DNA from: Desulfatitalea sp. BRH_c12
GTDB taxonomy: Bacteria; Desulfobacterota; Desulfobacteria; Desulfobacterales; Desulfosarcinaceae
DNA length: 50,632 nucleotides
Reading direction: 5' to 3'
Assembly: GCA_000961655.1 (NCBI GenBank)
Contig: LADR01000058.1
Coordinates: 1 to 50,632 of the forward strand
Position 1 is the first letter of the stretch, and each line of letters starts with the position of its first letter. Below, in pieces: positions 14,783 through 46,930 of the stretch. Below the pieces are notes generated by a model. It saw only the letters and a list, made by a program, of their open reading frames with translations. It had not been told where the DNA came from and searched no databases. Position numbers and translations under genes: made by a program.

Positions 14783-14799
14783 TCAAAACCTCCTCGTAT

Positions 14800-15222
14800 T
14801 CAGACAATCATGGCCGAGCGCGCCTGACTGGGCCCCAGGGCCGTGACCTGCGCGACCAGCGCACGCATGATCGCCGCAAACTGGATACCGTCGCTGGCAC
14901 CGATCCAGGTCAGTTGCAGCCGTTCGGGTTCGAAACCGAACTGGGGCAGAATCTCCTTGAGCAGTTTGATCCGCCGGCGGGCCTTGTAGTTGCCGTTGAT
15001 GTAGTGGCAGTCGCCCGGATGACAGCCACTGACCAGCACGGCATCAGCGCCTTCCAGCAAGGCTTTGAGAATATACTGCGGATCGACCATGCCGGTGCAC
15101 ATGACCCGGATCAGGCGCACGTTGGGCGGGTAGTCCAGGCGCGAGGTGCCGGCCAGATCGGCGGCCGTGTAGGTGCACCAGTTGCAGACGAAAGCGACGA
15201 CGACCGGTTCAAATGATTCCAT
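14800..15222 (-). CDS. mvhD: MvhD-like hydrogenase/Hdr linker iron-sulfur subunit
   Basis: A 140-residue protein with the MvhD pattern: VVAFVCNWCTYTAADLAG near the start, RVMCTGMVDPQYILKAL, and GCHPGDCHYINGN. MvhD carries a 2Fe-2S cluster and passes electrons to HdrA. The start at 15222 has AGAGGGAGCCT upstream and gives the family N-terminus MESFEPVVVAF; the frame is open 8 codons further. It sits between the two HdrA-type genes. No hydrogenase large subunit is in the window, so the donor is probably the NAD(P)-binding GltD module or the FrhB-like subunit. Confidence 0.9.
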   Translation of the reverse strand: MESFEPVVVAFVCNWCTYTAADLAGTSRLDYPPNVRLIRVMCTGMVDPQYILKALLEGADAVLVSGCHPGDCHYINGNYKARRRIKLLKEILPQFGFEPERLQLTWIGASDGIQFAAIMRALVAQVTALGPSQARSAMIV

Positions 15223-15369
15223 AGGCTCCCTCTTTGTTGTATCCATTGGCCCGTTACCCGTTGTGATCGGTATTCAGATCGTTACGTCCATGCGCAGGGC
15301 GGATCTTGTGTTTGCCCGGTGGGTGCGTCGGCACACGATGCCGTGCGTCCACCACGGGCAACGCCTCCC

Positions 15370-18300
15370 TTATCCTGCCAATCGGTGCGTGGCCTCGAAA
15401 ATCCCATCGATCTCGGCAAAGAGCTGCCTGCCCGTAAAATGCCGGCTGGCGGCCGCACCGCTGGGACAAACGGCCGAGCAGGTGCCGCATCCTTTACAAA
15501 TCAAAGGATTGACCTGGGCGCGCCCGATGCGTTCATTGAAACTGATCGCGCCGTAAGGACACAGCTCGATGCACATGCGGCAGCCGGCGCAGATGTCCGC
15601 ATCGATAACGGAAATGGTCGGCGCGATCTCCACCTGGCCCTTAACGGCCAAGGATAGGGCCTTGGCGGCCGCGCCCGAGGCATGCGATACGCTGTCGGGA
15701 ATATCCATGGGCTTCTGGCAGCACCCGGCCAGGAACAAGCCATCCGTGGCGGTGGCGATCGGTCCCAATTTGGGATGCAGCTCCAAAAAGAAACCGTCGC
15801 CGCCCTGGGACACTCCGAAGATGCGCCCCGTGCAATCGGCATCCGCGCGGGCTTCTATGGCCGTGCACAGCACCGCCATGTCCACCGGCAAACGCACCGT
15901 GCGTCCGAGCAGTGTGTCTTCGGCAATCACGATCAAGCGGCCGTTTTCCTCCGCGCAAAGCGGCTGATCGCTGATTTCAGCAACCTTGCCGCGGATAAAG
16001 CAAGTGCCCTCCTCCTGGCAGCGCCGGTAGAACTCTTCATAGCCTTCGCCAAAACAGCGCATATCGATGTAAAAATCGTAAACCGCCGTGTCCGCCCCCA
16101 CCTTCTCCTTGATCAGGTGGGTATACTTAAGCGCGTACATGCAGCACACCCGCGAGCAGTAGTCGTGATAACGCACGTCGCGACTGCCGATGCAGTGCAA
16201 CAAGGCGACACTGCCGGGCGGCCGATCGAAACAACCTTGGCCATCGCGCATGAGGATGCGGCCGCCGGTGGGCCCGGTGGCGTTGCTGAGCCGCTCGAAT
16301 TCCAGTGCGGTAAACACATTCGGCAGACGGCCGTAACCGTATTCGGTCATCAGGGTCGGATCGAGGGTGTCGTATCCTGTGGCCAGAATGATGCTACCGA
16401 CATGGACTTTGGTTTCGGTGGCCTGCATGTGGTGGTCGATCGCCTTGACTTCGCAGGCCGCCTCGCACTGCATACACTCGCAGCACACCGCGCAGTTGAG
16501 ACAGCGTGCGGCTTCAGCGCGGGCCTGCGTTTCGGTCAATCCCAGATCGACCTCGACAAAGGTTCCTGCGCTCGGCTCGGCCGGTCGTCGCCCGGACGCG
16601 GCGCGCGCTGATAGCGCCATACCCGGTGGAATCTCCGCCCAATCCCCCGCATGGTCATCAGCCGCCAGCGACGGCGCGCCATCCGACAAAGACGCGCCAC
16701 GCACAAAGCGGTCCAGGGCCGCCACGGCCCGGTGCGCGGCACCGACCGCCTCAATGGCGAGTGCCGGCCCACTGGCCATGTCGCCGGCGGCAAAAACATG
16801 CGCCAGGGAAGTTTGCCCGGTATGCGGATCGATCGTCAGTGTACCGCGCCGCGTCCAGGACAGATCGGGCACATCGGCAGCCCATGCGCTGTCGGTGGTC
16901 TGACCGACGGCCGCGATGACAGCGTCGCAGTCAATGGAAAAGACGGTTTCCGGCATCACCTTGGGCCGGCGGCGGCCATCCGCGCCGGGCTCCCCAAGAC
17001 GGGTCCGCACGCAAGTCAGGGCCGCCACTTGCCCGGCCTGGCTCTCGATGCACACGGGGGCGGTCAGAAACAGGAAGTCGATTCCTTCCTGCCGGGCGTC
17101 CCGAATCTCCTCCGCATAGGCCGGCATCTCCTGTTCGGTCCGCCGGTAAACGACCGTGACCGCGCGACTGCCTAACCGCCGGGCACAGCGCGCGGCATCA
17201 ATGGCCACATTGCCGCCACCGACGATCACCACCCGATCGCCCGGCTTTGCGCGCGCGCCGCTGTTGACCGCGTGCAGAAAAGTGACGCCGTCGATCACGC
17301 CGGCTGTCTCAGCCTCACCGGGGATATGCAGACGCATGGCCTGATGGGCGCCTAAACCCAGAAAAACGCCCGCATAGCCTTGGGTGCTCAAATCAGCCAA
17401 GCTGAAGTCCCGGCCCAGGCGCAGGCCGGTACGCGCATCGACGCCCAGGGAAAGGATATAAGCGATCTCCTGGTCCAGGATATCCGGCGGCAAGCGATAA
17501 TCGGGGATACCCACGCGCAGCATGCCGCCCAGGCAGTCAAGGCCTTCGAACAGCGTGACCTGGTATCCTTTCAGACGCAAATCATAGGCTGCCGTCAGAC
17601 CCGCCGGTCCGCCACCGACCACCGCGATCTTCTCCGGACGCTCCTTGATTTCGGGAACCGGCAGCGCGCTCATCGCGACCTGGTCAGCCGCGAAACGTTT
17701 CAGGGCGCGAATCGATACGGGTGCATCCACCTGTGCCCGCCGGCATTGGTCCTCGCACGGATGCGGGCAGATGCGTCCCAAGGTCCCGGGCAGCGGCAGA
17801 CGCTGCATGATCAGATCCAATGCCTGGCGATATTTGCCCTGGCCGACGAGCTGCACATACCCCTGAACATTGATGCCGGCCGGGCAAGCGGCCGCGCATG
17901 GCGCGCGGTCTTTTTTTTCGATATTGAAGGCAATGGGAACGGCCTGCGGAAATGCCCGGCCGATCGCATGGCGCTGCGCCATACCCTGATCCCAGGCGTT
18001 GGGAATCGACACCGGACATACCTTGGCGCACTCCCCACAGCCCGTGCAGGACTGGGCATTCACATAGCGCGGGTGGTGGCGGATGGTCACTGCAAAGTTG
18101 CCCACGAACCCGGAAACATCGGTCACCTCGCTCAACGCGTGCAGGCGGACGTTGGGGTGCTGACCGACGTCGACCATTTTGGGGGTGCCGATGCAGGCCG
18201 CGCAGTCCAGGGTGGGAAAGGTCTTGTCGAATTGCAGCATGTGACCGCCGATAGTGGTGTCCCGTTCGACCAGGTGCACGATGTGGCCGGCATCGGCGAT

Positions 18301-18771
18301 GTCCAGGGCTGCCTGCATGCCCGCGATGCCACCGCCAACCACCAGCATCTCCGGGTGCACCGCGGCCCAGCGGCTTGTCAGCGCCTGGTGGTCCTGCACC
18401 CTGCGCACAGCGGCCGCGACCAGGATCTTGGCTTTGGCCGTGGCAGCCACTGAATCCGTTGTGACCCACGAGACCTGCTCGCGCACGGATGCCATTTGAA
18501 AGTAGTACGGGTTCAGTCCGGCACGGCGGCAAACGTTCATGAAGGTCTTGCCGTGCAGGCGCGGTGAACACGAGGCCACCACCACGCGGTCCAGCCCCAG
18601 TGGGCGGATGTCGTTTTCGATCATGGCCTGTCCGGGGTCGGAACACATGAACCGATAGTCGCGCGCGATAGCCACACCCCGCAACCCCTGGGCAAACTCA
18701 GCCACGGCGCCCACATCGACCCGGTGAGCGATATTGATGCCGCAATGGCAGATATATACGCCGGTTCGCAT
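15370..18771 (-). CDS. hdrA: HdrA flavoprotein with inserted GltD-like NAD(P)H oxidoreductase module
   Basis: An 1133-residue fusion. An N-terminal HdrA domain (GVYICHCGINIAHRVDV) is followed by the FAD fold (LVVGGGIAGMQAALDI, FPTLDCAACIGTPKM) and a ferredoxin motif CTGCGECAKVCP. A whole GltD/NfnB-like module is then inserted: Fe-S part CPAGINVQGY..ICPHPCEDQCRR, FAD motif IAVVGGGPAGLTAAYDL and NAD(P) motif VVIVGGGNVAIDAARC. After a Cys-rich stretch (CLNCAVCCECMQC) the HdrA fold resumes (VGSIILATGYDTLDP), ending in CAGCRMCIELCP and CKGCGTCSAVCP. It is probably the entry or exit point for NAD(P)H in bifurcation. The start at 18771 lies 2 bases after the stop of the regulator gene, behind AAAGGG. 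Confidence 0.92.
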   Translation of the reverse strand: MRTGVYICHCGINIAHRVDVGAVAEFAQGLRGVAIARDYRFMCSDPGQAMIENDIRPLGLDRVVVASCSPRLHGKTFMNVCRRAGLNPYYFQMASVREQVSWVTTDSVAATAKAKILVAAAVRRVQDHQALTSRWAAVHPEMLVVGGGIAGMQAALDIADAGHIVHLVERDTTIGGHMLQFDKTFPTLDCAACIGTPKMVDVGQHPNVRLHALSEVTDVSGFVGNFAVTIRHHPRYVNAQSCTGCGECAKVCPVSIPNAWDQGMAQRHAIGRAFPQAVPIAFNIEKKDRAPCAAACPAGINVQGYVQLVGQGKYRQALDLIMQRLPLPGTLGRICPHPCEDQCRRAQVDAPVSIRALKRFAADQVAMSALPVPEIKERPEKIAVVGGGPAGLTAAYDLRLKGYQVTLFEGLDCLGGMLRVGIPDYRLPPDILDQEIAYILSLGVDARTGLRLGRDFSLADLSTQGYAGVFLGLGAHQAMRLHIPGEAETAGVIDGVTFLHAVNSGARAKPGDRVVIVGGGNVAIDAARCARRLGSRAVTVVYRRTEQEMPAYAEEIRDARQEGIDFLFLTAPVCIESQAGQVAALTCVRTRLGEPGADGRRRPKVMPETVFSIDCDAVIAAVGQTTDSAWAADVPDLSWTRRGTLTIDPHTGQTSLAHVFAAGDMASGPALAIEAVGAAHRAVAALDRFVRGASLSDGAPSLAADDHAGDWAEIPPGMALSARAASGRRPAEPSAGTFVEVDLGLTETQARAEAARCLNCAVCCECMQCEAACEVKAIDHHMQATETKVHVGSIILATGYDTLDPTLMTEYGYGRLPNVFTALEFERLSNATGPTGGRILMRDGQGCFDRPPGSVALLHCIGSRDVRYHDYCSRVCCMYALKYTHLIKEKVGADTAVYDFYIDMRCFGEGYEEFYRRCQEEGTCFIRGKVAEISDQPLCAEENGRLIVIAEDTLLGRTVRLPVDMAVLCTAIEARADADCTGRIFGVSQGGDGFFLELHPKLGPIATATDGLFLAGCCQKPMDIPDSVSHASGAAAKALSLAVKGQVEIAPTISVIDADICAGCRMCIELCPYGAISFNERIGRAQVNPLICKGCGTCSAVCPSGAAASRHFTGRQLFAEIDGIFEATHRLAG

Positions 18772-18773
18772 GT

Positions 18774-19211
18774 TCAATCCCTTTCGGTTTCGTCGCAACA
18801 ACTGGAAATCCCAGTCAACCGTTGCACCACGGCGATGAACTCGTCCGCCTCGGGCGGGTTGGGTAAAAAGGCGTCCGGCAAAGGCAGATGACGGACGTTC
18901 GTGGACAAGACGCTTTGCAAACGGGCGGCGTGCAGCTCACGCCGGGTCAGACTGGAGAGCATCACTACCGGCACATGACGCAGCCGCGTATCATCTTTGA
19001 GCCCGGCGAAAATCTGCTGGGTGCCATCCGCTGGCAACATGGCATCCAGAACGATCAGCGAAGGTGCGTGAAAACGGGCGGCATCCAGGGCATCGCAGGG
19101 CCGATCCACCGTCAGCGGTTCAAATCCGTGGGCGCGTAGCAGATTGACAACATAAAGGCGCTGATCGTGCTCATCTTCGATCACCAGGATCTTGATCATC
19201 GATGCGGGCAT
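18774..19211 (-). CDS. Stand-alone response regulator (receiver domain only)
   Basis: A 145-residue single receiver domain: KILVIEDEHDQR acidic patch, probable phosphoacceptor Asp in LIVLDAMLPADG, and Ser in MLSSLTRR. The position equivalent to the conserved Lys falls near HLPLPDAFLP and shows no clear KP motif, so switching may be atypical. There is no output domain. The start at 19211 follows AAGGAGGCGCCT. It is the first gene after the sigma-54-type promoter at about 19268-19285 and ends 2 bases before the HdrA-GltD start, so it is co-expressed with the Hdr genes. Confidence 0.85.
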   Translation of the reverse strand: MPASMIKILVIEDEHDQRLYVVNLLRAHGFEPLTVDRPCDALDAARFHAPSLIVLDAMLPADGTQQIFAGLKDDTRLRHVPVVMLSSLTRRELHAARLQSVLSTNVRHLPLPDAFLPNPPEADEFIAVVQRLTGISSCCDETERD

Positions 19212-19267
19212 AGGCGCCTCCTTGGTCCGGACGCTTTGTAACCGCGTCACGGTGTTGCCCTTTACCT

Positions 19268-19285
19268 AAGCACACCCCATGCCAC
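19268..19285 (-). promoter_or_regulatory. Sigma-54 (-24/-12) promoter of the hdr operon
   Basis: The minus strand reads TGGCATGGGGTGTGCTT. The GG and GC doublets are exactly 10 bases apart, as in the TGGCAC-N5-TTGCA consensus; TGGCA is exact and the -12 half reads GTGCT. The ATG at 19211 lies about 57 bases downstream. The next gene upstream encodes a sigma-54 activator, which fits. Confidence 0.65.
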
Positions 19286-19357
19286 ATGGCCATCATTCGT
19301 AAGCGACTGTGTTCGCTACATAAATATAATCGAAAAAAATTCGGCAGCCCGCCCCGC

Positions 19358-19455
19358 GCAGTTGCAACCATGCAACAACCGCCACGCAGATTTAAAATAA
19401 CACTCCGATAAATAGAAATTTTTAGATGATGCAGCTGTTGCGCAACAGGCTTGTT
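19358..19455. promoter_or_regulatory. Inverted repeats resembling activator binding sites upstream of the -24/-12 promoter
   Basis: GTTGCAACCATGCAAC (about 19358-19373) and TGTTGCGCAACAGGCTTGTTGC (about 19436-19455, written here as TGTTGC-GCAACA-GGCT-TGTTGC) are built from the same GTTGC/GCAAC half-sites. They lie about 75-185 bases upstream of the promoter, the usual range for upstream activating sequences of sigma-54 enhancer-binding proteins. No other function was seen for this stretch. Confidence 0.5.
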
Positions 19456-19555
19456 GCGTTCACCATGCAGAGGCGAACCTTATGGTCGCGAGGTTCGTTC
19501 ACGTGGATTGTTTTTTGAGAAAGGGGCCGTGCGCCCAAGGGCTAGCGAGCCAGGG

Positions 19556-21286
19556 TCAGTGCAACCCGTAGCGTTTCATTTTACGCCACAAGGTTGTGCG
19601 GTCCATACGCAGGTTGTGGGCGGTTTTGCCGCGGTGCCCGTTGAAACGGGTCAGAGCGGCGGCAATGCGGTCGGCTTCATGGGCAGGCTCGTGCGCCGAC
19701 CGCCCTTGCTGGGGGGGCCGGACCGTTGCCGATGCGGTCAGCGTGGCTGGCAGATGTGCATGCTGGATGGGCCCGGCGCCGCTCAAGATCAGGGCATGCT
19801 CCAGGATATTTTCCAGTTCGCGCACATTGCCCGGATAGGCATGGTTGAGCAGGATGCCCATGGCATCTTCTGAAATGAGCACCGGGGTAAGTCCGCGCGC
19901 GGCGCACAATTTGCGCAAGATATGGCGAATGAGCAACGGCAGGTCGTCACGCCTGGCTTCGAGCGACGGCAACACGATGCGCACCACGTTGAGTCGGTAA
20001 TACAGGTCCTCCCTGAACTGACGGGCGTTGACCAGTTGCTCCAGCTTACGATTGGTGGCTGAAATGATGCGCACATCCACTTTGACCGTGCGACGGCTGC
20101 CCAAGGGGTAAAACTCTTTTTCTTCGAGCACGCGCAGCAGTTTGGCCTGCAGCGGCAGTGGAAGATCGCCGATTTCGTCGAGAAAAATCGTGCCGCCGGC
20201 GGCTTCCTGAAACCGGCCCGGCTTGTCACGATCGGCGCCGGTAAACGCACCCTTGACGTATCCAAAAATTTCCGATTCGATCAAACTGTCCGGAATGGCC
20301 GCGCAATTGATTTTCACCCAGGGCTTGCCCTTGCGCGGGCTGGCGGCATGGATGATCTTAGCCAAAAGATCCTTACCCGTGCCGGTGGGCCCTTCGATCA
20401 GGACGGTAGCGCCGCTGGCGGCCACCACCGGTATCATGGCGAAGATTTTCAGCATGGATGCGCTCTTGCCGATCATATCGAAACAGGTGTAGCGGTTCTT
20501 GGTGACCTGATCGAGCTGGTGTACCAGGGTCATGTCCTGGAAGGTGGCCAAGCTGCCCACCACCGCCCCTTTTTCATCGCGCAGGGCAACATAATTCGAC
20601 CGGATGGGAATGGCGCTGCCCTCTTTGTCGCGCAGCCAACCCTCTTGGCCACGATGGCTGGTGTCACGTGCGATGACGTCCCGGATCGCTGAAACGCTCG
20701 GCCGGTCGCTGCCGCCCAATAAGGACGCGCACGACAGGCCGAGCACCTCACTGCGCGCGTAGCCGGAAATCTGTTCAGCCGCCGTGTTGAAAAAGGTAAT
20801 CAGCCCGCCCCGATTGGTTGTGAAGACGCCCACATCAAGGCTGTCCAGAATGTTTTTCAAGCTGCGCTCTTCGTAACGCAGCCTGTCGATCAGGTCGCTG
20901 ATCGGCGAATGATCCTGCAACACGGTCAAACAACCAACCACCTGCCGCTCCAAGTTAAAAATCGGTGTGGCCATGCGGGTGACCAGATGCTGGCGCTGAT
21001 CTTCGTCCGTGACCCGCATGGGCACGTCTTCGGCTTGACGGCCGCTGCCACTGCCGACCATGCAGTTGACCATGCACGGCACGCCGGTGAATACTTCGCG
21101 GCACTCCTTGCCAAGGATCTCGACGGCGCGCAATCCAATCAAGGCCTGGGCGCAATGATTGATGGCCGTGATGCGGTGGTCGAGGTTGACAGTAAAGGCC
21201 CCGATATTCAGTTCATCGAGCACCGCCAGCCATTGATCGCAGGGGATGCTCGTGTCGCCGCATACGATGGAAGCGCTCGCCTGCAT
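19556..21286 (-). CDS. Sigma-54-dependent transcriptional activator (PAS-PAS-AAA-Fis HTH)
   Basis: A 576-residue enhancer-binding protein. Two PAS-like domains (about 15-125 and 140-260) precede the AAA+ domain, which has Walker A VLIEGPTGTGKD, the sigma-54 contact loop GAFTGADRDKPGRF, Walker B TIFLDEIGDLP and an arginine-finger region LYYRLNVV. The C-terminus is a Fis-type helix-turn-helix (AALTRFNGHRGKTAHNLRMD..LWRKMKRYGL). There is no receiver domain, so the PAS domains sense the signal directly or through the kinase. The gene starts 9 bases after the kinase stop codon (AGAGAGGCTTT before ATG). It very probably drives the promoter at 19268-19285. Confidence 0.92.
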   Translation of the reverse strand: MQASASIVCGDTSIPCDQWLAVLDELNIGAFTVNLDHRITAINHCAQALIGLRAVEILGKECREVFTGVPCMVNCMVGSGSGRQAEDVPMRVTDEDQRQHLVTRMATPIFNLERQVVGCLTVLQDHSPISDLIDRLRYEERSLKNILDSLDVGVFTTNRGGLITFFNTAAEQISGYARSEVLGLSCASLLGGSDRPSVSAIRDVIARDTSHRGQEGWLRDKEGSAIPIRSNYVALRDEKGAVVGSLATFQDMTLVHQLDQVTKNRYTCFDMIGKSASMLKIFAMIPVVAASGATVLIEGPTGTGKDLLAKIIHAASPRKGKPWVKINCAAIPDSLIESEIFGYVKGAFTGADRDKPGRFQEAAGGTIFLDEIGDLPLPLQAKLLRVLEEKEFYPLGSRRTVKVDVRIISATNRKLEQLVNARQFREDLYYRLNVVRIVLPSLEARRDDLPLLIRHILRKLCAARGLTPVLISEDAMGILLNHAYPGNVRELENILEHALILSGAGPIQHAHLPATLTASATVRPPQQGRSAHEPAHEADRIAAALTRFNGHRGKTAHNLRMDRTTLWRKMKRYGLH

Positions 21287-21295
21287 AAAGCCTCT

Positions 21296-22858
21296 CTAGT
21301 CGCCTGCCCGGATATCACCGGCCGGCAATTGAATAGTGAAAACGGTTCCTTGCCCCAAGCGGCTGTGCACATCGATGGTGCCGTGATGCCGCTCGATGAT
21401 GCCGAACGTGGTGGCCAGACCCAGTCCAATTCGGGCCCCTTCGTGTTTGGTCGAGAAAAAAGGTTCAAAAATATGCGGCAAAACGTCTGGAGCAATGCCG
21501 CAGCCACTGTCCTCGACCGTGATCAGCACAGTGCGGCCATCCGGCGCAGGCGCGGCATTTACCGATAAACGGCCGCCCTGGGGCATGGCGTCGATGGCAT
21601 TGAAGATCAGGTTGAGCAGGCACTGGTGCAGTTGATTGGCATCGCCATGGACCGGTGGCAGGTCTGCGGAGCACTGCTGGACCACGCTGATGTTGCCCAG
21701 TTCCAGGCGATGGCGGCTCAGATCGAGGCAGCGCCGCAGCAAGCCATCGACTGGCACCCATTGGAATTCGACCGGTGATTTGCGAGCGAACGTCAGCAGG
21801 TTGGACACTATGCCCGCGCAGCGGGACACCTCCTGTTCGCTGGTGGTCAGATAGCGCTGGAACAAATCGGAACGATCAGGGCGGCCCGCCTCGCCGAGCA
21901 TGCGCTGCATGAGACGCAAATAATTGAGCACACCCGACAAAGGATTGTTGATTTCGTGGGCCACGCTGGCTGCCAGGCGTCCGAGTGAGATCATTTTGTC
22001 CTGGTGCAGCATCCGCGCCTGATCGGCCATTTGCTGCTCCATGCGCCGAAGTTCGCGCAAATCGCGCACAAAACAGACCAGACCTTCAAGACGCGCACCC
22101 TCTTGAATTGCAACGGCTGACAGCTGTACGGGAACATCCTGGCCGCTGCGGGTACGCAGGCAGGTTTCGTAAAGATACAGACGCTCGGGACCGCCGTAGG
22201 CCGTGTCGGAAAACGCCTGGCGGAAAGCGGCCAGACGGGGTGGATCAAAAAAATCCGCCAGCTGCATGCGATGCATTGCCTGGCGCTTGGAATATCCCAG
22301 CATTTTTTCCAGGCTGGCGTTGTAAGTGACCACAATGTCACGCGCGTTGCAGCCCAGGATGCCATCAGTGGCGCTTTCGATCAGCTTGTGCTGATAGGCG
22401 AAGGTCTCCATCAGCTCGTGCGTGGTTTCGGTCCAGCCCTCTTCCAGAAAACGCGTGTAATCCTGAAGCTGCCGGCGCGTGGCCGACCGTTGCCTGGCGC
22501 GCTCGACGGCTGTGATCAGCACCGTGTGATCGATGGGTTTATTGATAAAATCCGAGGCATCCAATTGGAGGGCGCGCACGGCCAGGTCCATTTCGCCAAA
22601 GGCCGTGATCACGATGACTTCGATGTCGCGTCGATAGCGCTTGAGATGTTCCAGAACCTGCAGGCCGTCCATGCGCGGCATGCGGATATCGGTAATCACG
22701 ATATGCGGATCGAACGCGCCGCAATGCTCGATCCCCGCCTGGCCGTCAGCCGCCGTGGCCAACGTGTAGCCCGCGTCGGTCAGGATCATGGCAATCACCT
22801 CGCGGACATCCGGTTCGTCGTCGATGATCAGTATGCGCCAATCTTTGTTCTGCGACAT
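21296..22858 (-). CDS. REC-PAS-histidine kinase
   Basis: A 520-residue soluble kinase. The receiver domain (about 5-125) has ILIIDDEPDVRE, phosphoacceptor Asp in VITDIRMPRMDG, T in VITAFG and K in INKPID. A PAS domain (about 165-280, GCNARDIVVTYNASLEKML) leads to the kinase core: GRLAASVAHEINNPLSGVL (H-box), LLNLIFNAIDAMPQGG (N-box), VEDSGCGI and GARIGLGLATTFGII. G2 has R-I-GLGL in place of the usual K-GTGLGL. The start at 22858 follows CGGGGGTTGGGC. It is transcribed just ahead of the sigma-54 activator and is probably its signalling partner. Confidence 0.9.
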   Translation of the reverse strand: MSQNKDWRILIIDDEPDVREVIAMILTDAGYTLATAADGQAGIEHCGAFDPHIVITDIRMPRMDGLQVLEHLKRYRRDIEVIVITAFGEMDLAVRALQLDASDFINKPIDHTVLITAVERARQRSATRRQLQDYTRFLEEGWTETTHELMETFAYQHKLIESATDGILGCNARDIVVTYNASLEKMLGYSKRQAMHRMQLADFFDPPRLAAFRQAFSDTAYGGPERLYLYETCLRTRSGQDVPVQLSAVAIQEGARLEGLVCFVRDLRELRRMEQQMADQARMLHQDKMISLGRLAASVAHEINNPLSGVLNYLRLMQRMLGEAGRPDRSDLFQRYLTTSEQEVSRCAGIVSNLLTFARKSPVEFQWVPVDGLLRRCLDLSRHRLELGNISVVQQCSADLPPVHGDANQLHQCLLNLIFNAIDAMPQGGRLSVNAAPAPDGRTVLITVEDSGCGIAPDVLPHIFEPFFSTKHEGARIGLGLATTFGIIERHHGTIDVHSRLGQGTVFTIQLPAGDIRAGD

Positions 22859-23046
22859 GCCCAACCCCCGTAAGTGGTTGGTTCCTGTTCGGCAAGAAAA
22901 GATGTTGCAGTCAGTATAGACCCTTTATCGAAAACGTGCACGTAAAAGCGAACATCGTGAAAGAATGTCATGGGGTGGGCATGTTTTAAGCCATTATAAA
23001 ATCGTGGTTTTTCAGCGCCCAATGTTTGCAACAGAGTATTTATACC

Positions 23047-39344: not shown

Positions 39345-39540
39345 GATCAGACTGGGAACATTTTCAGCCGTCTTTATCGTGCACGCAGTTGTGGAAATCC
39401 TCGCCCCCAAAAGGGCACTAAGGCTCCCAAGCCCCGGCGAAGGTTTGCCAATGATACTATCCTAGCACTTAATCCCTTATCGAATTTTTGCAGTTCCCCA
39501 TCTTGCCCGTTGGATTGGCCCTCTTTGCATCCGAACACAC
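39345..39540 (+). pseudogene. Degraded 5' fragment of a sterol-desaturase-family gene (duplicate of 46132-46330)
   Basis: About 196 bases match the start of the intact desaturase-like gene at 46094-46930 almost base for base, for example GCCGTCTTTATCGTGC, GCCCCCAAAAGGGCACT and CGTTGGATTGGCCCT. Several small indels and stops are present. It is a dead partial copy lying 6.8 kb upstream of its parent. Confidence 0.85.
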
Positions 39541-39725: not shown

Positions 39726-40535
39726 ATGGATATCACACAAGCCATTACCAACATATCCAGCGATGTGCTGCGCCGCGCAATTAAAGCGGAATACGCACAA
39801 GTGGCGCTGAATCCTAATAAGGGCTATCATTTTCATACAGGACGCGAGGCGCTAACCCGAATAGGCTATGATCCGGAGTTGTACGCATCGCTGCCTGAAG
39901 AAAATATTGCCTCGTTTGCCGGTACCGGCAACCCATTTAGCTTTAGACCCATCCGTCAAGGCGATGTCGTGGTCGATGTCGGATCGGGTTCGGGATTCGA
40001 TTCCTTGATTGCCGCACGCTTGGTGGGTGCACAGGGGCGTGTGGTGGGCATAGACATGACCGCCGAGATGATTGAAAAGGCCCAGGCTGGGGCAAAGGCA
40101 ATGGGATTTACCCATGTCGCGTTCAGCCATGGCCTTGCAGATGACTTGCCGCTTCCGGATGACTTTGCCGATGTGATTATCAGCAATGGGGTGCTGAATT
40201 TAACGCCGGATAAAAATAAGACCTTGAAAGAGTGGGCACGCGTGCTCAATTGGGGTGGCCGTCTGTCCATCGGAGATATTGTCATTGAGAAGAAAATGCC
40301 CCAGGAGGCATTGGACGATATTTCATTGTGGACCGGCTGAATTGCCGGCGGTTTGCTGGAGGCAGACCTTTTGAAAACAGTGAACAGCGCGGGTTTTACA
40401 AAGGCTCAAATCATTCAGCATCATTCAATTTTCGAAGGCGTCCCCAATCCTTCGAGTGCACTTGAATTTGGAACAAAGGGGATCACTCTACGGGCTTTGA
40501 AAAATAGTTTTCCTGTGTTTGAACAAATGGCATAA
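39726..40535 (+). CDS. Selenocysteine-containing ArsM-like SAM methyltransferase
   Basis: A 269-residue protein if the in-frame TGA at 40338-40340 is read as Sec205; otherwise it would stop after WTG. The frame continues without a break with IAGGLLEADLLKTVNSAGF to a TAA at 40535. SAM motif I is VVVDVGSGSGFDSLIAA; VVGIDMTAEMIEKA and LNWGGRLSIGDIVI follow. The order and the (E/T)G-[C/U]-IAGxL motif fit the arsenite methyltransferase group, where the equivalent Cys binds As. The radical SAM fusion at 46967-50014 has Cys in this place (GECIAGAL). The protein has no Cys at all, so Sec205 is its only strong nucleophile. AAAGGAGATCAAT precedes the ATG. Arsenic is an inferred substrate; selenium or sulfur compounds are alternatives. 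Confidence 0.88.
40350..40368 (+). promoter_or_regulatory. SECIS-like hairpin of the methyltransferase gene
   Basis: GGTTTGC pairs with GCAGACC (7 bp with one U-G pair) around the loop TGGAG, starting 9 bases after the TGA at 40338. Position and G-containing loop fit bacterial SECIS elements read by SelB. Confidence 0.65.
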
Positions 40536-40968: not shown

Positions 40969-41017
40969 TTGACAGAGAGCCCAACAACATATAAACGTAA
41001 ATTTATATGTTGTTGGG
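40969..41017 (+). promoter_or_regulatory. Promoter with a perfect palindromic operator over the -10 region
   Basis: TTGACA at 40969-40974 is a consensus -35; TATAAA at 40990-40995 (15-base spacer) or TAAACG at 40992-40997 (17-base spacer) can serve as -10. The -10 lies in a palindrome: CCCAACAACATATAAA (40980-40995), 6 bases, then its exact complement TTTATATGTTGTTGGG (41002-41017). It sits 66 bases before the thioredoxin reductase start, and the second gene of the operon encodes an ArsR-type repressor, its likely ligand. The palindrome has no T-run, so a terminator is unlikely. Confidence 0.7.
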
Positions 41018-41083
41018 CGTTGCCTTTTAAATGCCTTTGAAAACCTCATGACCACTCAGGTCGGAAACATGAGAAGGGACAGT

Positions 41084-42043
41084 ATGTCGAAAAACGAGAT
41101 GTACGATTTGATCATCGTAGGAGGCGGACCCGCGGGCTTATCCGCTGGGATCTATGCTATGCGCGCAGCGCTCAAAACCGTGTTGATCGAAAGCGGCGTC
41201 CCCGGCGGACAGGTGGCCATTACCAAGGAAGTGGAAAACTACCCTGGTTTTATAGAGATCGGCGGCTTCGATCTTTGTGAAAAATTCCTGCTGCATGCCA
41301 AACATTACGAACTCGAAATTTTAGAAAAGGAAGCCGTCGCAACAGACCCCGGGATTGAATACCACTCGGTACGCCTCGCCGATGGCACCCTTCTGAAAGC
41401 TCATGCGGTCATCCTGGCGGCAGGCGGCACGGCCCGAAAGCTGAACATACCTGGTGAAAACGAGCATTTCGGCAGTGGTGTGTCCTATTGCGCGACCTGC
41501 GACGGTTTCTTTTTTCGTGATAAAATCGTAGCGGTCGTCGGCGGGGGCGATACAGCTTTGGAAGATGCCCTTTATCTTTCCAAGATCACCCGCAAGGTCT
41601 ATCTCATTCACCGGCGGGAGGCCTTCCGGGGCAGTCGCATCCTTCAGCAGCGCGTATTTGCCGAACCCCGGATCGAAATCATTTACAATACGGTCGTCAC
41701 CGCGATCAATGGTGACGACAGCGGCGTCCGCGCCATCTCCCTGAAAGATACGCAAAGCGGCGCTCAGCGCGATATCGACACCGAAGGCGTTTTCATATTT
41801 GTCGGTTTTACGCCGAACAACACACTGGTTCCCGCCGGGATCAAGACCAATGGCACCGGCTATGTCATCACGGATGAAAAATGCGAGACCGATATTCCGG
41901 GTATTTTTGCCGTGGGCGACCTCCGGCAAAAATACGCCAACCAGATCGTTCTGGCCGCCGCGGATGGCTGCACGGCGGCCCTGGCGGCCGCGCACTATGT
42001 CGAAACCCGCAAAGACGCCCAGACGTGCCAAGCCGCGGGTTGA
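41084..42043 (+). CDS. trxB: Thioredoxin reductase family flavoprotein
   Basis: A 319-residue FAD/NAD(P)H enzyme. FAD motif: DLIIVGGGPAGLSAGIYAMR; redox pair CATC in VSYCATCDGFFFRDK; NAD(P) motif VAVVGGGDTALEDALYL with HRREAFRGS (the arginines suit NADPH); C-terminal FAD motif GIFAVGDLRQKYANQIVLAA. The start at 41084 has GAAGGGACAGT upstream; the frame is open 36 bases earlier. As first gene of the operon with several thioredoxin-like selenoproteins, it probably supplies them with electrons. The final residues DAQTCQAAG carry an extra Cys. Confidence 0.92.
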   Translation: MSKNEMYDLIIVGGGPAGLSAGIYAMRAALKTVLIESGVPGGQVAITKEVENYPGFIEIGGFDLCEKFLLHAKHYELEILEKEAVATDPGIEYHSVRLADGTLLKAHAVILAAGGTARKLNIPGENEHFGSGVSYCATCDGFFFRDKIVAVVGGGDTALEDALYLSKITRKVYLIHRREAFRGSRILQQRVFAEPRIEIIYNTVVTAINGDDSGVRAISLKDTQSGAQRDIDTEGVFIFVGFTPNNTLVPAGIKTNGTGYVITDEKCETDIPGIFAVGDLRQKYANQIVLAAADGCTAALAAAHYVETRKDAQTCQAAG

Positions 42044-42098
42044 ATTACAGGTGAAACCATCGACAGGGCATCGATCGCCATCCACAGAGTGTCTGATT

Positions 42099-42479
42099 AT
42101 GGGTAAAATGGAAATGAAATCATCACCGGACGACCCGGCAGTTCAAAACGATGGATTTTTGGCGCAATGCCGGTTGGATAACGACCATCTTCAAAGGGCC
42201 GCCTTCCTGGCCAAGAGCCTGTCGGACGGCAACCGTCTGAGGATATTGTTGCTCATCAGCGCAAGCAAGAAGTCGGTGTCCGCCATCGTCGAGGCATTGG
42301 ATCTGTCGCAACCGCTGGTGTCGCACCATCTGAAGGAGTTAAAACGCTCGCTGCTGGTCAAGGTGGAGCGCGAGGGGCCGTTTATCTACTATGAACTGGC
42401 GGATACGAGAATTCTGGATGTTTTACGAACCTTAGGCGAGGTGGCAACTGATCTTTTGTCCACACGAAGGACTTTTTAG
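42099..42479 (+). CDS. ArsR-family transcriptional repressor
   Basis: A 126-residue winged-helix protein: AAFLAKSLSDGNRLRILLLI, ASKKSVSAIVEALDLSQPLV, SHHLKELKRSLLVKVEREGP, FIYYELADTRILDVLRTLGE. ArsR/SmtB repressors release DNA on binding metals, metalloids or sulfur species. The classic ELCVCDL metal-binding motif in the recognition region is replaced by VSAIVEAL. A single Cys lies in the N-terminal extension (AQCRLDN), so sensing is atypical or uses thiol chemistry there. It lies 55 bases after trxB and 23 before the Sec/HTH gene. The palindrome at 40980-41017 is the probable operator. Confidence 0.88.
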   Translation: MGKMEMKSSPDDPAVQNDGFLAQCRLDNDHLQRAAFLAKSLSDGNRLRILLLISASKKSVSAIVEALDLSQPLVSHHLKELKRSLLVKVEREGPFIYYELADTRILDVLRTLGEVATDLLSTRRTF

Positions 42480-42502
42480 TACAAAGGAGGCAAACCAATC
42501 CT

Positions 42503-42970
42503 ATGGATGAGCTTTTTGAAATCATCTCCCGCATGGCCCCGGAAGAGGCCCTGTCGAAAATCACAACGGTCGCGGGAAGACTTTTGGCGGACCTGGACGG
42601 CACTGCGCGCGAGCGTTTCCTGATGAACCTGATCGGGCAATCCGAGGGCGACAAAGTATCCGGCATGGTGCACTTGTGACTGGCCGAATGCATGGGCGAA
42701 GGTGTCGACCCAACACAGATGTGCCAAAGCCTTGTGGACAAGGTCATGCAGTCCGAGCAACTCATGGCGATCGCCGATCCCGACCTGTTGGTGCTTTTCG
42801 AAGACTGGCTGGAAGAATTGGAAGCAGAGGTGCGGGCGCTTTTAAAAACGCAGGGACCCTTGGACGATGAAACCGTGGCCGACAAGCTCGGCCTGTCGCG
42901 AAGAGGGGCGAAATTCCTGCTTACCAAGCTGTTAAGCGAAGGGGCGCGGCCCATCGGGGATGAATCTTGA
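42503..42970 (+). CDS. Selenocysteine-containing small protein with possible helix-turn-helix
   Basis: 155 residues, with Sec59 encoded by the TGA at 42677-42679 (VHL-U-LAEC). Without recoding, the product would stop at residue 58, and the rest would begin without a ribosome-binding site. AAAGGAGG lies 12 bases before the ATG at 42503. Sec59 and Cys63 form a UxxxC pair; Cys74 is nearby. The N-terminal half is helical (MDELFEIISRMAPEEALSKI). Residues about 116-148 (DDETVADKLGLSRRGAKFLL) look like a helix-turn-helix, so the protein may sense a redox or metalloid signal. No family was recognised. It follows the ArsR gene and precedes the UxxC thioredoxin-like gene by 19 bases. Confidence 0.82.
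42693..42712 (+). promoter_or_regulatory. SECIS-like hairpin of the 155-residue selenoprotein gene
   Basis: TGGG and CCCA close a stem that contains a further GA/TC pair and the loop AGGTG, starting 13 bases after the TGA. It is weaker than the others in this operon, with an internal mismatch. Confidence 0.45.
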
Positions 42971-42989
42971 ATAGCAGGAGGGATAAACA

Positions 42990-43274
42990 ATGCACAAGTT
43001 GGTCGTGTTTCATAGTGGCAACCCCGGCTGAGTCTCATGCAGAAAGGCTATAGGTGTAGCCAACGACATGAAGGAAAGATTCGCTGAAGAACTGGATGTA
43101 AAGATCTACACCATGGATACGGAGGAAGCGAAACCGTACGCATTTGCCTTTAAGGGTTCGACCAATGTCCTTTTCGATGAGGATTGGGTGCCCCTCGGTG
43201 TAGCGATTGACAAAGCCAAAATGGAAACATTTTTATCCGGAAAAGTATCACCGGAAACAGGAAACGGTACATGA
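42990..43274 (+). CDS. Thioredoxin-like selenoprotein with a UxxC active site
   Basis: 94 residues, with Sec14 encoded by the TGA at 43029-43031: VVFHSGNPG-U-VSCRKA. Sec14 and Cys17 form UxxC at the end of the first beta strand, the thioredoxin active-site position. A second strand (LDVKIYTMDT) and a C-terminal strand with FAFKGSTNVLF fit a small thioredoxin fold. GCAGGAGGGATAAACA precedes the ATG. The stop overlaps the next start (ATGA at 43271), so the two genes are translationally coupled. It is the likely soluble carrier between thioredoxin reductase and a target. Other Cys are absent, so a UxxC exchange reaction is expected. Confidence 0.88.
43046..43061 (+). promoter_or_regulatory. SECIS-like hairpin of the UxxC gene
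   Basis: GGCTA and TAGCC form a perfect 5-bp stem with loop TAGGTG, starting 14 bases after the TGA at 43029. The GGU-type loop and distance match bacterial SECIS elements. Confidence 0.75.
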
Positions 43275-45034
43275 ACAAAAGGATATCCTCTTTTTTGGCG
43301 CTGGCGGCCGTGTTGATCACGATCGTCTATGTTTGGCACGATCAGCGCCCTCCCGTGCTGGCGCAGGTTACCTGGGATGACGTGATCGCCGAGGCCAGAA
43401 CCGGTGGCTACCGCATCATCACCACCGAAGCGCTTGCCGAAATATATGACAAGTCCCCTTCCGATCTGATGCTGATCGACACCCGCCAGGAGTGGGAATA
43501 TCGCACGGGGCACATCAAAGGCGCGCTTAATTTCTCGATGGCGCCCACCTGGTGGGCGCGCTGGCAAAAGGCGGACGACCTGGAAGCGTTTTTAGGTCCG
43601 GACAAGGCGCGCACCCTCGTATTTTACTGAGCCGGGTTGACATGAGTCCGTAGCGACTCGGCGGCCCGTGTGGCCGTATCGCTTGGTTACCAAAACGTTT
43701 ACCGTGACCCTTATGGTTTTCCCAAATGGCAGGAACAGGGACTGCCGATTGCAAGCACGCCCGCCGGATTATCGGCGCCCGTCCAGGCCGATGCCGACCC
43801 CACCAGCAGCCGATCGCTTCAGGGATGGGCCATGCTGTGGACGCTTTTGGGTGTTTTTGCCGGCGGCCTGGCGTTGAATCTGACGCCCTGCGTCTATCCC
43901 ATGATCCCGATCACGGTCTCCTTTTTCGGGGGGCGCACGACCCGGGATAATCCCAACCAGTTCAAGCTGGTTTTGCATGGGCTTTGTTACCTGTTGGGAT
44001 TGGCGGCAACCAACTCGGCATTGGGCGTAGCCGCCGCGCTCACCGGCGGATTGATGGGCGCCGTGTTGCAAAATCCCATCGTTCTGACCCTTGTGGCCGG
44101 TGTCCTGATCCTGTTTGCCACCAGCCTGTTCGGGTTTTGGGAACTGCGCCTGCCCGGCGCGCTGACCCAGGCCGCGGGCCGATCCTACAGCGGCTATTTT
44201 GGCAGCCTGTTCATGGGGCTTACCCTGGGCATTGTCGCTGCACCGTGCATCGGCCCCTTTGTCTTGGGACTGCTCACCTGGGTGGCCGGGATGGGAAATC
44301 CCTGGTTAGGTTTCTTGATTTTCTTTATTCTCAGCCTGGGCCTGGGGACGCCGCTTTTCGTACTGGCGCTTTTTTCCGGCCAATTGCAGCGCTTGCCGCG
44401 GGCCGGCGGCTGGATGCTCTGGGTGCGCAATCTCATGGGTTGGGTGCTGGTCGGCATGGCGGCCTACTTTATTCGGCCGATTTTGCCCGAAATCTTGAAA
44501 ATCGCCTTGCCGGTCGCTGTCGCCTTGGCCGCCGGTCTGCACCTGGGCTGGCTGGACAAAAACCAAGCCGGCTTCAGGGCTTTTCCATGGCTGAAAACCA
44601 TCGTGGGTACGGCCTGTCTGGTTCTGGCGACTTTCTGGATCACCGCCTGGGCCATGCGCGGCCCTGGAATCGATTGGCAGACCTATTCGCAAACAACCCT
44701 GCAAGAGGCAACCGCACAGGAAAAACCGGTGATCATCGACTTTTATGCCGACTGGTGCACGCCCTGCCGCGAGTTGGAAGAGGTCACTTTTCATCAAGCC
44801 GATGTGGTCCGCCAGGCGCGAAATAATTTTATCATGATCAAGGTGGATGTGACCAAAGGGGGCAACCCAGTGCACGAACAGTTGCTCAAGCAATACGGTG
44901 TCCAGGGGGTGCCCACGATTGTCTTTATAGATGATCGCGGCAAGGAACGAACAGATCTGCGCCTGGTGGATTTTTTGCCCCCAACGGATTTTTTGGGTCA
45001 CATGGCCGATTTGAAGAAGACGAATCAACAATAA
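43271..45034 (+). CDS. Rhodanese-DsbD-thioredoxin fusion with two selenocysteines
   Basis: 587 residues when the TGAs at 43628-43630 and 43643-43645 are read as Sec120 and Sec125. The frame then runs on without a stop. An N-terminal signal or anchor helix (ISSFLALAAVLITIVYVW) is followed by a rhodanese domain (about 40-165: LMLIDTRQEWEYRTGHIKGA, active loop VFY-U-AGLT-U-VRSDSAARVAVSL). In homologues this loop has the CxGxxC pattern. The DsbD membrane core (about 188-460) has Cys207 (NLTPCVYP) and Cys326 (AAPCIGPF). The C-terminal thioredoxin domain has CTPC at 496-499. The rhodanese replaces the usual N-terminal DsbD domain, so electrons may pass from the cytoplasm through the membrane cysteines to an external selenol rhodanese. 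The targets are unknown. Confidence 0.9.
43644..43659 (+). promoter_or_regulatory. SECIS-like hairpin for the first Sec codon of the rhodanese fusion
   Basis: GAGTC and GACTC form a perfect stem with loop CGTAGC. It starts 13 bases after the TGA at 43628 and overlaps the second TGA (43643-43645). Confidence 0.7.
43662..43676 (+). promoter_or_regulatory. SECIS-like hairpin for the second Sec codon of the rhodanese fusion
   Basis: CGGCC and GGCCG form a perfect stem with loop CGTGT, starting 16 bases after the TGA at 43643. So each of the two close Sec codons has its own hairpin. Confidence 0.7.
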
Positions 45035-45049
45035 AGGAGATCATTGAAC

Positions 45050-45370
45050 ATGCTCAAAGTCCGCTTTTTTCTCAACGAGCCCAACGGCAAGCCCTGAAAA
45101 CATTTTAAGCAGATGATGCCCAGGTTGGGCGCCAAATACCCTGTTGAAATCGTCGTCACGTCAAAGCCAAAAGCCGAGTACTCGACGGACGAGTACTTCG
45201 AACTGGATCTGCCCGTGGCCCCGGCCGTCATGGTCGGCGATGAAATCGTAGTGGAAGGCCAAGACGTTCCCGCAAACACGGTAGAGGTTCATATTTGCCG
45301 GCAACTGGGATTGCCCGAACCACAAGCGCGGAAAAAGGGTGTGCTGAGCCGAATTTTTAAAAAAGATTAG
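45050..45370 (+). CDS. Thioredoxin-like selenoprotein with GKPU motif
   Basis: 106 residues, with Sec16 encoded by the TGA at 45095-45097: VRFFLNEPNGKP-U-KHFKQM. The Sec lies where thioredoxin folds keep the nucleophile, after strand one and before helix one. YPVEIVVTSKP and PVAPAVMVGDEIVVEG (the latter with a cis-Pro-like VAPAV) complete the pattern. There is no resolving Cys near Sec16; one Cys lies in EVHICRQLG. AAAGGAGATCATTGAAC precedes the ATG, 15 bases after the DsbD stop. It is probably a partner or acceptor in the operon's relay. Confidence 0.85.
45118..45130 (+). promoter_or_regulatory. SECIS-like hairpin of the GKPU gene
   Basis: GCCCA and TGGGC pair around the short loop GGT, starting 20 bases after the TGA at 45095. 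Loop GGU fits SelB-binding hairpins. Confidence 0.65.
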
Positions 45371-45413
45371 CACAATGGTGAATTGAAATGAGCGTGATAA
45401 CCAAGGGGACATC

Positions 45414-46097
45414 ATGCAAGTCGATGTAAAGAAAAAAAGCGCATGGGTAAGGTTGTCGATTCTGGTCTTGTTCATTGCCGCGGCGATTTACCTGGTCCGT
45501 TTTTCGCCTGCCCAAAAGTACCTCACGATCGAACAGCTGGGGCAGTTTATCGATGCAGCGGGTGTTTGGGCACCTTTGGTGTTTGTGTTCGTTTACGCGG
45601 CCGGCGTGTGCCTTTTTCTTCCCGGCACATTGCTGACCGCTTTAGGCGCCGCGATCTTCGGGCCGTACTGGGGATTCTTATACGTCTGGCTGGGGGCCAT
45701 GTTCGGCGCAAGTCTGGCCTTTGTGATCGGACGCTACCTGGGACGGGACTTCGCTGCATCCATTGTCGGCAGCCGGTTGAAACGCTATGACGATGCTATC
45801 GGGCGCAATGGCTTTGCCACGGTCCTGTATCTGCGCCTGATCTATTTTCCTTTCACCCCCATGAATTTCGGCATGGGACTGACCAAGGTCCGTTTTTGGG
45901 ACTATTTTGCCGGTACCGCCCTTGGCATTATGGTCGGCACTTTCATTTTCACGTTTTTTATTGGAACGATAAAGGAGATTTGGATCTCCGGCCGTTGGGA
46001 AGGACTTCTGAGCTGGAATGTGTTTATCTCCCTTGCGCTGTTCATTTTCTCCTTTTTCATTCCCAAGCTCCTGAAAATGGCGCGCGGATCGGAATGA
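45414..46097 (+). CDS. TVP38/TMEM64 (VTT domain) membrane protein
   Basis: A 227-residue integral membrane protein. After a short basic N-terminus, hydrophobic helices appear at about 12-28, 48-85, 88-105, 165-190 and 200-222. The VTT/DedA-like core shows LFLPGTLLTALGAAIFGPYWGF, FVIGRYLGRDFAA and LRLIYFPFTPMNFGMGLTKV. Family members are membrane proteins of uncertain transport or lipid-handling roles that often sit next to mercuric-reductase-like genes and redox genes. It starts 43 bases after the GKPU gene, behind AAGGGGACATC, and its stop overlaps the next start. Confidence 0.85.
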   Translation: MQVDVKKKSAWVRLSILVLFIAAAIYLVRFSPAQKYLTIEQLGQFIDAAGVWAPLVFVFVYAAGVCLFLPGTLLTALGAAIFGPYWGFLYVWLGAMFGASLAFVIGRYLGRDFAASIVGSRLKRYDDAIGRNGFATVLYLRLIYFPFTPMNFGMGLTKVRFWDYFAGTALGIMVGTFIFTFFIGTIKEIWISGRWEGLLSWNVFISLALFIFSFFIPKLLKMARGSE

Positions 46098-46930
46098 TTA
46101 TGGATATTGCTTTCCTGAAAGATGAAAGAACGATCAGACTCGGCGCATTTTTAGCCGTCTTTATCGTGCTTGCGGTTGTGGAAGTCTTTGCCCCCAAAAG
46201 GGCACTGCTGACCTCCAAGCCCCGGCGATGGTTTGCCAATCTCACTATCGTGGCATTGAATCCCGTATCGGTGTTTTTGCTGTTCCCCATTCTACCCGTT
46301 GGATTGGCCCTTTTTGCATCCGAACACAATTGGGGACTGCTCAACCAAGTGGCACTTCCTGAATGGCTGACGGTCATTGCAGCCGTGGTGGTGCTCGATC
46401 TTGTGGTTTATACGCAACATGTACTATTTCATGCGATCCCAACTCTGTGGCGGCTTCACATGATGCACCACGCCGATATGGATATCGATATGACCACGGG
46501 ATTGCGGTTTCATCCGATAGAGATTACCGTATCCATGGTCTTCAAGCTCTCCACCATTGCCGCGCTGGGGGCGCCAGCGGTGGCCGTTCTGATCTTCGAA
46601 GTGGCTTTGAACGCTACCTCCATGTTCAATCACGGCAATATCAGCCTTCCGCAAGGAATCGACCGGATACTGCGACTGATCGTGGTTACACCGGACATGC
46701 ATCGGGTCCACCATTCGGTGATTATTCGCGAGACCAATAGTAATTACGGCTTTAACCTGCCGTGGTGGGATCGCCTGTTCGGCACCTATAAAAGTCAGCC
46801 CGCCAAAGGACACACAGACATGACAATCGGTTTGTCGCAGTTCCGCGATCCACAAAAGCTTTCCCTGCCGCGCCTGCTGATCCTGCCGTTCGTGGGCGAT
46901 CCCGGCCGGGTGCCCATCAATCGGCATTGA
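46094..46930 (+). CDS. Sterol desaturase/fatty acid hydroxylase superfamily membrane protein
   Basis: A 278-residue membrane protein with di-iron type His motifs: HVLFHAIPTLWRLHMMHHAD and HRVHHS, plus a further His in MFNHGNIS. In this superfamily eight His bind two irons for O2-dependent hydroxylation or desaturation; in an anaerobe the reaction is uncertain. The ATG at 46094 overlaps the TVP38 stop (ATGA); an ATG at 46100 is an alternative. It is the last gene of the selenoprotein operon and is convergent with the radical SAM gene 36 bases away. A dead partial copy lies at 39345-39540. Confidence 0.85.
   Translation: MIMDIAFLKDERTIRLGAFLAVFIVLAVVEVFAPKRALLTSKPRRWFANLTIVALNPVSVFLLFPILPVGLALFASEHNWGLLNQVALPEWLTVIAAVVVLDLVVYTQHVLFHAIPTLWRLHMMHHADMDIDMTTGLRFHPIEITVSMVFKLSTIAALGAPAVAVLIFEVALNATSMFNHGNISLPQGIDRILRLIVVTPDMHRVHHSVIIRETNSNYGFNLPWWDRLFGTYKSQPAKGHTDMTIGLSQFRDPQKLSLPRLLILPFVGDPGRVPINRH

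Follow-up and report, generated by a model that had tools for sequence, protein, structure and literature searches.

A run of genes in the bacterium Desulfatitalea sp. BRH_c12, in which four reading frames are interrupted by TGA codons and one gene encodes an ArsR-type regulator, raises the question of whether these codons are read as selenocysteine (Sec) and, if so, what the proteins would do and what the regulator would respond to. The genes lie on contig LADR01000058.1 within a stretch of 50,632 nucleotides, here called the window, from an assembly of 6.0 Mb in 91 contigs. Five of their products, TsoR, TsoA, TsoX, TsoB and TsoC, all score above the cut-offs of the corresponding NCBIfam families; the operon is real, belongs to the already named Tso system and has an unusual gene set. 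A preliminary description of the window had presented the arrangement as not described as a system, which does not hold since the Tso families are named in NCBIfam and a Tso operon appears in a 2026 review (PMC13188914). In the part of that review covered here, Tso stands for "three selenoprotein operon", TsoA, TsoB, TsoC, TsoX and TsoY are predicted selenoproteins, and the system is credited to Haft & Tolstoy 2025 (mSystems 10:e0141724). Among the items listed by a literature search for Tso, the review alone names it, and in the sources covered the Tso selenoproteins are given names and no function. What looks new is the conserved promoter switch, together with signs that TsoA may be the sensor for the repressor.

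Selenocysteine codons of the Tso operon

The eight genes of the operon, with trxB first and a fatty acid hydroxylase gene last, are all on the forward strand, as the preliminary description had it, and are separated by at most 55 bases or overlap at ATGA; the successive gaps are 55, 23, 19, −4 (ATGA), 15, 43 and 2 bases (Table 1). The five TGA codons that it reported in tsoA, tsoX, tsoB and tsoC are exactly placed and all in frame. Family searches over 395 genomes of the phylum, with the curated family cut-offs applied, gave 34 TsoA matches in 33 genomes, each with one TGA, 23 TsoB matches in 22 genomes, 22 of them with two TGAs, and 21 TsoX matches in 21 genomes, 20 of them with one TGA; the TsoX that has none (genome G294) carries neither Sec nor Cys as the aligned residue. 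In alignments that count the window protein, the Sec column is Sec in all 20 TsoA and all 34 TsoC sequences (second tsoC copies of the same operon included), and both positions of TsoB are Sec in 27 of 28, the remaining sequence having Cys at both. Sec or Cys in the homologues was one check that the preliminary description had proposed, and the presence of selA, selB, selC and selD was another; all four are in the genome, each above its cut-off (selA 613.8 bits, selB 379.5 bits, tRNA-Sec 72.4 bits and selD 372.6 bits), and selD has one TGA of its own.

It is because of these conserved columns, and not of a G in a hairpin loop, that we assign the codons to Sec. As read from the sequence, the window almost certainly carries a Tso operon with four selenoproteins, and the earlier claims of four selenoproteins and a redox theme are supported. 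That the TGAs are instead ordinary stops in decayed genes has a negligible probability, since conservation of the Sec columns spans families and orders, the sole TsoB above the cut-off that lacks a TGA has Cys at both places, and the genome has the Sec machinery; the alignments of the TsoA, TsoB, TsoC and TsoX relatives argue against it. One full-length TsoB, at locus L136 (G278:C128), has Cys in place of both Sec residues, and its genome encodes the Sec form as well; the 19.5 kb covered at this locus hold an ArsM-like gene with a TGA, and matches to TsoR, TsoA and TsoC were not found in them. A sixth in-frame TGA of the window, absent from the preliminary description, lies in an ArsM-like gene upstream of the operon, where the aligned residue in a 1015-aa fusion protein, encoded on the other strand beyond the operon, is Cys (WTG-U-IAGG versus KGE-C-IAGA).

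The hairpins that follow the TGAs bear out the preliminary description only in part. It had noted a hairpin with G in its loop after each TGA, and by eye one can indeed be chosen after each of the six, with G among the first two loop bases in all and with a separate hairpin for each Sec codon of tsoB (loops CGUAGC and CGUGU). An automatic minimum-energy rule with the same demand on G finds it after three of the six TGAs, against six of 20 control TGA stops (the 40338 TGA itself among them) and 30 of 100 random stretches. In relatives, G in the loop was found in 13 against 8 control segments of 20 for tsoA, in 21 against 8 and 17 against 14 of 27 for the two tsoB sites, and in 9 against 13 of 34, below the control, for tsoC. 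As proof of Sec the loop G was rejected: with three of six, and tsoC relatives below control, it discriminates poorly. When the 63 bases that start at the TGA were folded as a consensus, the energies were −8.25, −15.98 and −6.92 kcal/mol for tsoA, tsoB and tsoC, against 0.0, −2.9 and 0.0 kcal/mol for control segments further downstream; covariation adds nothing to these three folds, which represent shared structure without compensatory support. The conserved Sec columns and the consensus folds together argue that the TGAs are not there by chance. An Rfam search of the window gave nothing useful.

Table 1. Positions of the operon genes, regulatory elements, hairpins and related features (window coordinates unless a locus is named)
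Feature	Position	Strand	Evidence or remark
TTGACA, putative −35 element	40969-40974	+	14 bp before operator core
Putative TsoR operator	40979-41018	+	core 40989-41008, ATATAAA-cgtaaa-TTTATAT
trxB, thioredoxin-disulfide reductase	41048-42043	+	TIGR01292, 353.9 bits (cut-off 343.45)
tsoR, ArsR-type regulator	42099-42479	+	NF045707, 160.9 bits (cut-off 115)
tsoA, selenoprotein, HTH-like C-terminal region	42503-42970	+	Sec at 42677; NF045695, 209.4 bits (cut-off 170)
tsoX, selenoprotein, UxxC	42990-43274	+	Sec at 43029; NF045809, 128.5 bits (cut-off 52)
tsoB, selenoprotein	43271-45034	+	Sec at 43628 and 43643; NF045694, 981.2 bits (cut-off 805); Pfam
tsoC, selenoprotein, NEPNGKPU	45050-45370	+	Sec at 45095; NF045708, 146.2 bits (cut-off 45)
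VTT/TVP38 membrane protein	45414-46097	+	PF09335
Fatty acid hydroxylase superfamily protein	46100-46930	+	PF04116
SECIS-like (selenocysteine insertion sequence) hairpin, tsoA	42694-42711	+	by eye and consensus fold; 31 of 200 shuffles fold equally well, alone not significant
SECIS-like hairpin, tsoX	43046-43061	+	by eye
SECIS-like hairpin, tsoB first Sec	43644-43659	+	by eye and consensus fold
SECIS-like hairpin, tsoB second Sec	43661-43677	+	by eye and consensus fold
SECIS-like hairpin, tsoC	45118-45130	+	by eye and consensus fold
SECIS-like hairpin, ArsM-like gene	40350-40368	+	by eye
ArsM-like methyltransferase, likely Sec	39726-40535	+	TGA 40338 (WTG-U-IAGG); operon neighbour, outside the operator's downstream reach
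Radical SAM / ArsM-like / DUF5714 (MbdU-like) fusion, 1015 aa	46967-50014	-	domain and family profile searches
Met-rich TsoA-type gene with TGA, L250	5404-5760 (approximate)		
Met-rich TsoA-type gene with TGA, L259	4800-5140 (approximate)		
Met-rich TsoA-type gene with TGA, L260	3730-4075 (approximate)		

The predicted promoter-operator upstream of trxB

A short way upstream of trxB lies a perfect 17-bp inverted repeat, absent from the preliminary description, which follows a TTGACA element and whose left half overlaps a putative −10 element. The core ATATAAA-N6-TTTATAT has its sole exact copy in the 6.0-Mb assembly here, and TTGACA copies with at most one mismatch precede the operator sites of relatives. 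We scored a promoter-operator where, in the 300 bases upstream of a tsoR-type locus, a core with at most three mismatches was preceded by a TTGACA-like element at 12–26 bases; the window was counted by the stretch before trxB. Such sites precede 25 of 45 loci, where first-order Markov copies of these upstream stretches would give 0.09. The 45 loci include all seven that were viewed when the motif was defined (the window, L138, L139, L142, L147, L148 and L151), and four of the 25 sites (L140, L242, L250 and L256) match only at three mismatches. L133, with 102 bases upstream, was skipped, and L054, which duplicates L142, was counted once. The loci fetched later have the promoter-operator in one case of four. 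Where trxB comes first, the site stands upstream of trxB in all three operons (the window, L190 with one mismatch and L135 with three). In genome G296, which has tsoR-tsoA and tsoB on separate contigs, tsoB is itself preceded at short distance by a site with two mismatches (L132, core at 10219-10238; TsoB match from 10140).

These data suggest that TsoR very probably acts on the repeat at 40979-41018, which we take to be a repressor site overlying the promoter. A competing interpretation is that the repeat ends an upstream transcript as an intrinsic terminator: its perfect 17-bp stem is followed by GTTGCCTTTT, and a terminator scan does list it. The inner core, the N6 spacing and the upstream TTGACA are, however, what the relatives share, while the outer arms differ in the sites printed, and we regard a terminator as very unlikely. 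A wider TsoR regulon in the genome found no support: with up to two mismatches allowed, the pattern has 19 sites and its reversed control 21, and the exact site alone stands out. A single exact copy of the predicted operator would allow a cheap test of inducers, and through the inducer would lead to the substrate of the system.

TsoR, TsoA and the possible site of sensing

The preliminary description had placed the operon under an ArsR-type repressor. The gene is indeed in the operon, and the winged-helix HTH_5 domain of its product is recognized (PF01022, E = 3.7e-11); its action as a repressor is made plausible by the operator, in a protein that has no conserved Cys. TsoR resembles the ArsR/SmtB metalloregulators in the HTH_5 domain and in a palindrome over the promoter, and the NCBIfam label is that of a metalloregulator, but it differs from them in lacking the conserved Cys/His/Asp ligand site of metal sensors. 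Among 20 TsoR sequences no Cys is conserved, the best Cys column being occupied in six; a conserved C-terminal His, as expected of a metal-ligand site, is not found in the 20 either, and the only His columns conserved in at least 70% of them are the two in the recognition helix.

What TsoR has instead is a near-constant partner. In the window tsoR directly precedes tsoA. Among the 52 TsoA-type matches, L199 is cut by a contig end, and 50 of the other 51 have a TsoR-type ArsR gene in front, the exception being L263; at L250, L259 and L260 a VTT gene stands between the two. In TsoA, Sec59, Cys63 and Cys74 are invariant. The C-terminal stretch shows a weak winged-helix resemblance in local Foldseek matches at E above 0.5; the fold search gave no match at E of 0.001 or below, and TsoA searches in solved structures and in a plasmid collection gave nothing useful. 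Because TsoR is without a conserved Cys, the TsoR-TsoA pairing is near-constant and the Sec/Cys/Cys residues of TsoA are invariant, we propose that TsoA may be the sensor for TsoR, a role suggested by gene order and conserved residues. Selenocysteine would then serve in signal detection for transcription control, beyond catalysis.

Two further groups of TsoA-type genes broaden the comparison. Five short proteins (L245–L249), each encoded after an ArsR gene, have no Sec and a Met-rich start, and among the genes near them are those for an ArsP_1 permease (L246) and a heavy-metal P-type ATPase (L249). At L250, L259 and L260, from two genomes of one genus, a Met-rich start is combined with an in-frame TGA (VER-U-MQMC), a strong hairpin follows the TGA in all three, and an ArsM-like gene lies downstream; the arrangement is ArsR, VTT, Met-rich TsoA-type gene, ArsM-like gene. 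These proteins are likely to form a selenoprotein family below the TsoA cut-off. It is conceivable, if doubtful, that TsoR and TsoA exemplify a two-gene sensor in which an ArsR protein hands sensing to a separate small protein, by a Sec/Cys/Cys site in TsoA, by a Met-rich segment in L245–L249 and by both in L250, L259 and L260. If so, TsoB and TsoC, TsoX, TsoY, MbdU-like proteins and seleno-ArsM would be interchangeable outputs of that sensor.

Proposed electron path, possible substrate and gene neighbourhoods

TsoB has a hydrophobic segment at its N-terminus (residues 3–23), followed by a rhodanese domain that holds Sec120 and Sec125, a DsbD membrane part and a thioredoxin domain. The DsbD-type cysteines C207 and C326 in the membrane part and C496 and C499 in the thioredoxin domain (WCTPC) are invariant in all 28 sequences. 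TsoB thus shares with DsbD the DsbD_TM domain, two invariant membrane Cys and a C-terminal WCxxC thioredoxin domain, but its N-terminal domain is rhodanese-like with two Sec, and with 270.1 bits it falls below the cut-off of 330 of the full-length DsbD model (NF001419). In DsbD, electrons from cytosolic thioredoxin pass to the membrane Cys pair, then to the C-terminal domain and finally to the N-terminal domain. TsoC is predicted to have a thioredoxin-like fold (pLDDT 87.1) with Sec in the start region of the first helix, its best match among solved structures being a thioredoxin (E = 7.8e-4, TM 0.46), and TsoX carries a UxxC motif. The operon probably serves a reductive relay.

The gene identities, the Sec positions and the promoter-operator are read from the DNA, and from them we infer four steps. 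(a) TsoR on the operator would block RNA polymerase. (b) The inducer would be read by TsoA through Sec59, Cys63 and Cys74, and TsoA would then release TsoR. (c) Electrons would pass from NADPH to TrxB, to the cytosolic thioredoxin-like TsoX and TsoC (or an ordinary thioredoxin) and to Cys207/Cys326 of TsoB in the membrane, and from there, as in DsbD, to the WCTPC thioredoxin domain and the periplasmic rhodanese-like Sec/Sec domain. (d) The product would be a metalloid or sulfane species in reduced form, at the membrane or outside it, and would be handled beside seleno-ArsM-like methyltransferases. Tentatively, we favour a Tso variant whose inducer is a soft metalloid, metal or electrophile and whose proteins form a reductive relay; that TsoA reads specifically a metalloid or soft metal as the inducer is a weaker proposal, which may well prove wrong.

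Clues to a possible substrate come from ArsM-like genes. The one upstream of the operon is ArsM-like only, with 220.6 bits against the ArsM cut-off of 263 (NF008823) and 241.7 bits against 510 (NF041537). Of the 44 ArsM-like matches that reach 170 bits in 34 genomes, nine are no more than 10 kb away from tso genes, where 0.26 would be expected, and eight of these nine carry one TGA against 22 of the 44 overall; the genomes were chosen for having Tso-type genes, and the binomial values count related genomes as independent. In L198 and L243 TsoA is followed by a DUF5714/MbdU-like gene, and phmmer matches to the 1015-aa fusion gene of the window occur in L199 and L241. ArsM-like open frames of 988–1130 aa are also present in seven other genomes, as judged by the ArsM-like match alone.

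Several observations weigh against the metalloid-induced relay. The ArsM link is phylogenetically narrow, for two of the nine cases are in the window and five of the remaining seven belong to a single genus, leaving about four lineages. Within the 300 bases upstream, no operator was found at 20 of the 45 loci and at three of the four fetched later. The structure model of TsoA is poor (pLDDT 65.9) and does not support a meeting of its three chalcogens, and the weakest TsoA-type match (L263, 21.6 bits), which is probably another protein, has no adjoining TsoR-type gene. The literature search, which did not include the naming paper, gave no functional test of any Tso protein. In addition, a gene for an ArsR-rhodanese fusion stands directly before tsoB in L050, L052 and L053, where no TsoA was found within the sequence at hand and no operator near tsoB.

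These fusion genes point to sulfane sulfur, and with it to a system in which the rhodanese-like domain of TsoB takes a persulfide or polysulfide, the relay reduces it and the regulators sense reactive sulfur. The rhodanese domain itself fits such a role, and TsoR and its relatives match BigR, a sulfite-sensing ArsR protein, far below the cut-off. Persulfide-sensing ArsR proteins, however, require a Cys pair, and TsoR has no conserved Cys; several neighbour genes at other loci are, moreover, related to metals or metalloids. We consider the sulfane-sulfur system rather unlikely and hold a metalloid or soft-electrophile role somewhat above it.

More improbable still is a general role of the operon in thiol-redox repair of the envelope or in defence against oxidants, without any specific toxic substrate, in an anaerobe that meets oxygen. 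TrxB, thioredoxin-like selenoproteins and a DsbD-like protein are brought together in the operon, as this would predict, and the gene that recurs at the end of the operon encodes a fatty acid hydroxylase, whose family normally uses O2. However, the operon has a regulator of its own, with one exact copy of the predicted operator in the genome, and its distribution is patchy, TsoB exceeding its cut-off in 22 of the 395 genomes; both suggest a specialised task.

With its relatives the operon shares the order tsoR-tsoA-tsoB-tsoC, and it differs from them in that trxB leads, tsoX separates tsoA from tsoB, and the last gene is the one for the fatty acid hydroxylase. Across 30 tsoB loci (the window included, some cut by contig ends), TsoR and TsoA occur in 20, TsoC in 25, often in two copies, and VTT in 14. 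The preliminary description had counted trxB and tsoX among the parts of the system; each is present at only two of the 30 loci, the window and one other, which is L135 for trxB (L131 has a further match of 35 residues) and L140 for tsoX, and both were rejected as core parts. TsoB was not found at most TsoX loci; TsoR-TsoA-TsoX stand alone at L190, L192 and L201, and with TsoC at L191. The fatty acid hydroxylase gene is found among the 30 at the window, L050 and L140; the TsoA search adds L256 and L258, and at L194 the gene adjoins tsoX. In genome G330 (L256) the order is ArsM-TsoR-TsoA-TsoB remnant-TsoC-VTT-hydroxylase, which is that of the window without trxB and tsoX. The six-selenoprotein Sec-assisted organometallic (SAO) operon is likewise a multi-selenoprotein system with a metal or metalloid theme, according to the part of the review covered (PMC13188914), but no Sao family is among the matches listed for the ten window proteins scanned.

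Upstream of the ArsM-like gene of the window, 39345-39539 corresponds to the decayed start of a fatty acid hydroxylase gene, 81–91% identical in pieces to 46132-46328 and perhaps the trace of an old duplication. Further away, in the region 4903-22864, genes for two large FAD/4Fe-4S proteins (10148-13570 and 15370-18801, reverse strand), which by our own reading are heterodisulfide-reductase-like, are surrounded by those for histidine kinases, response regulators and a sigma-54 activator.

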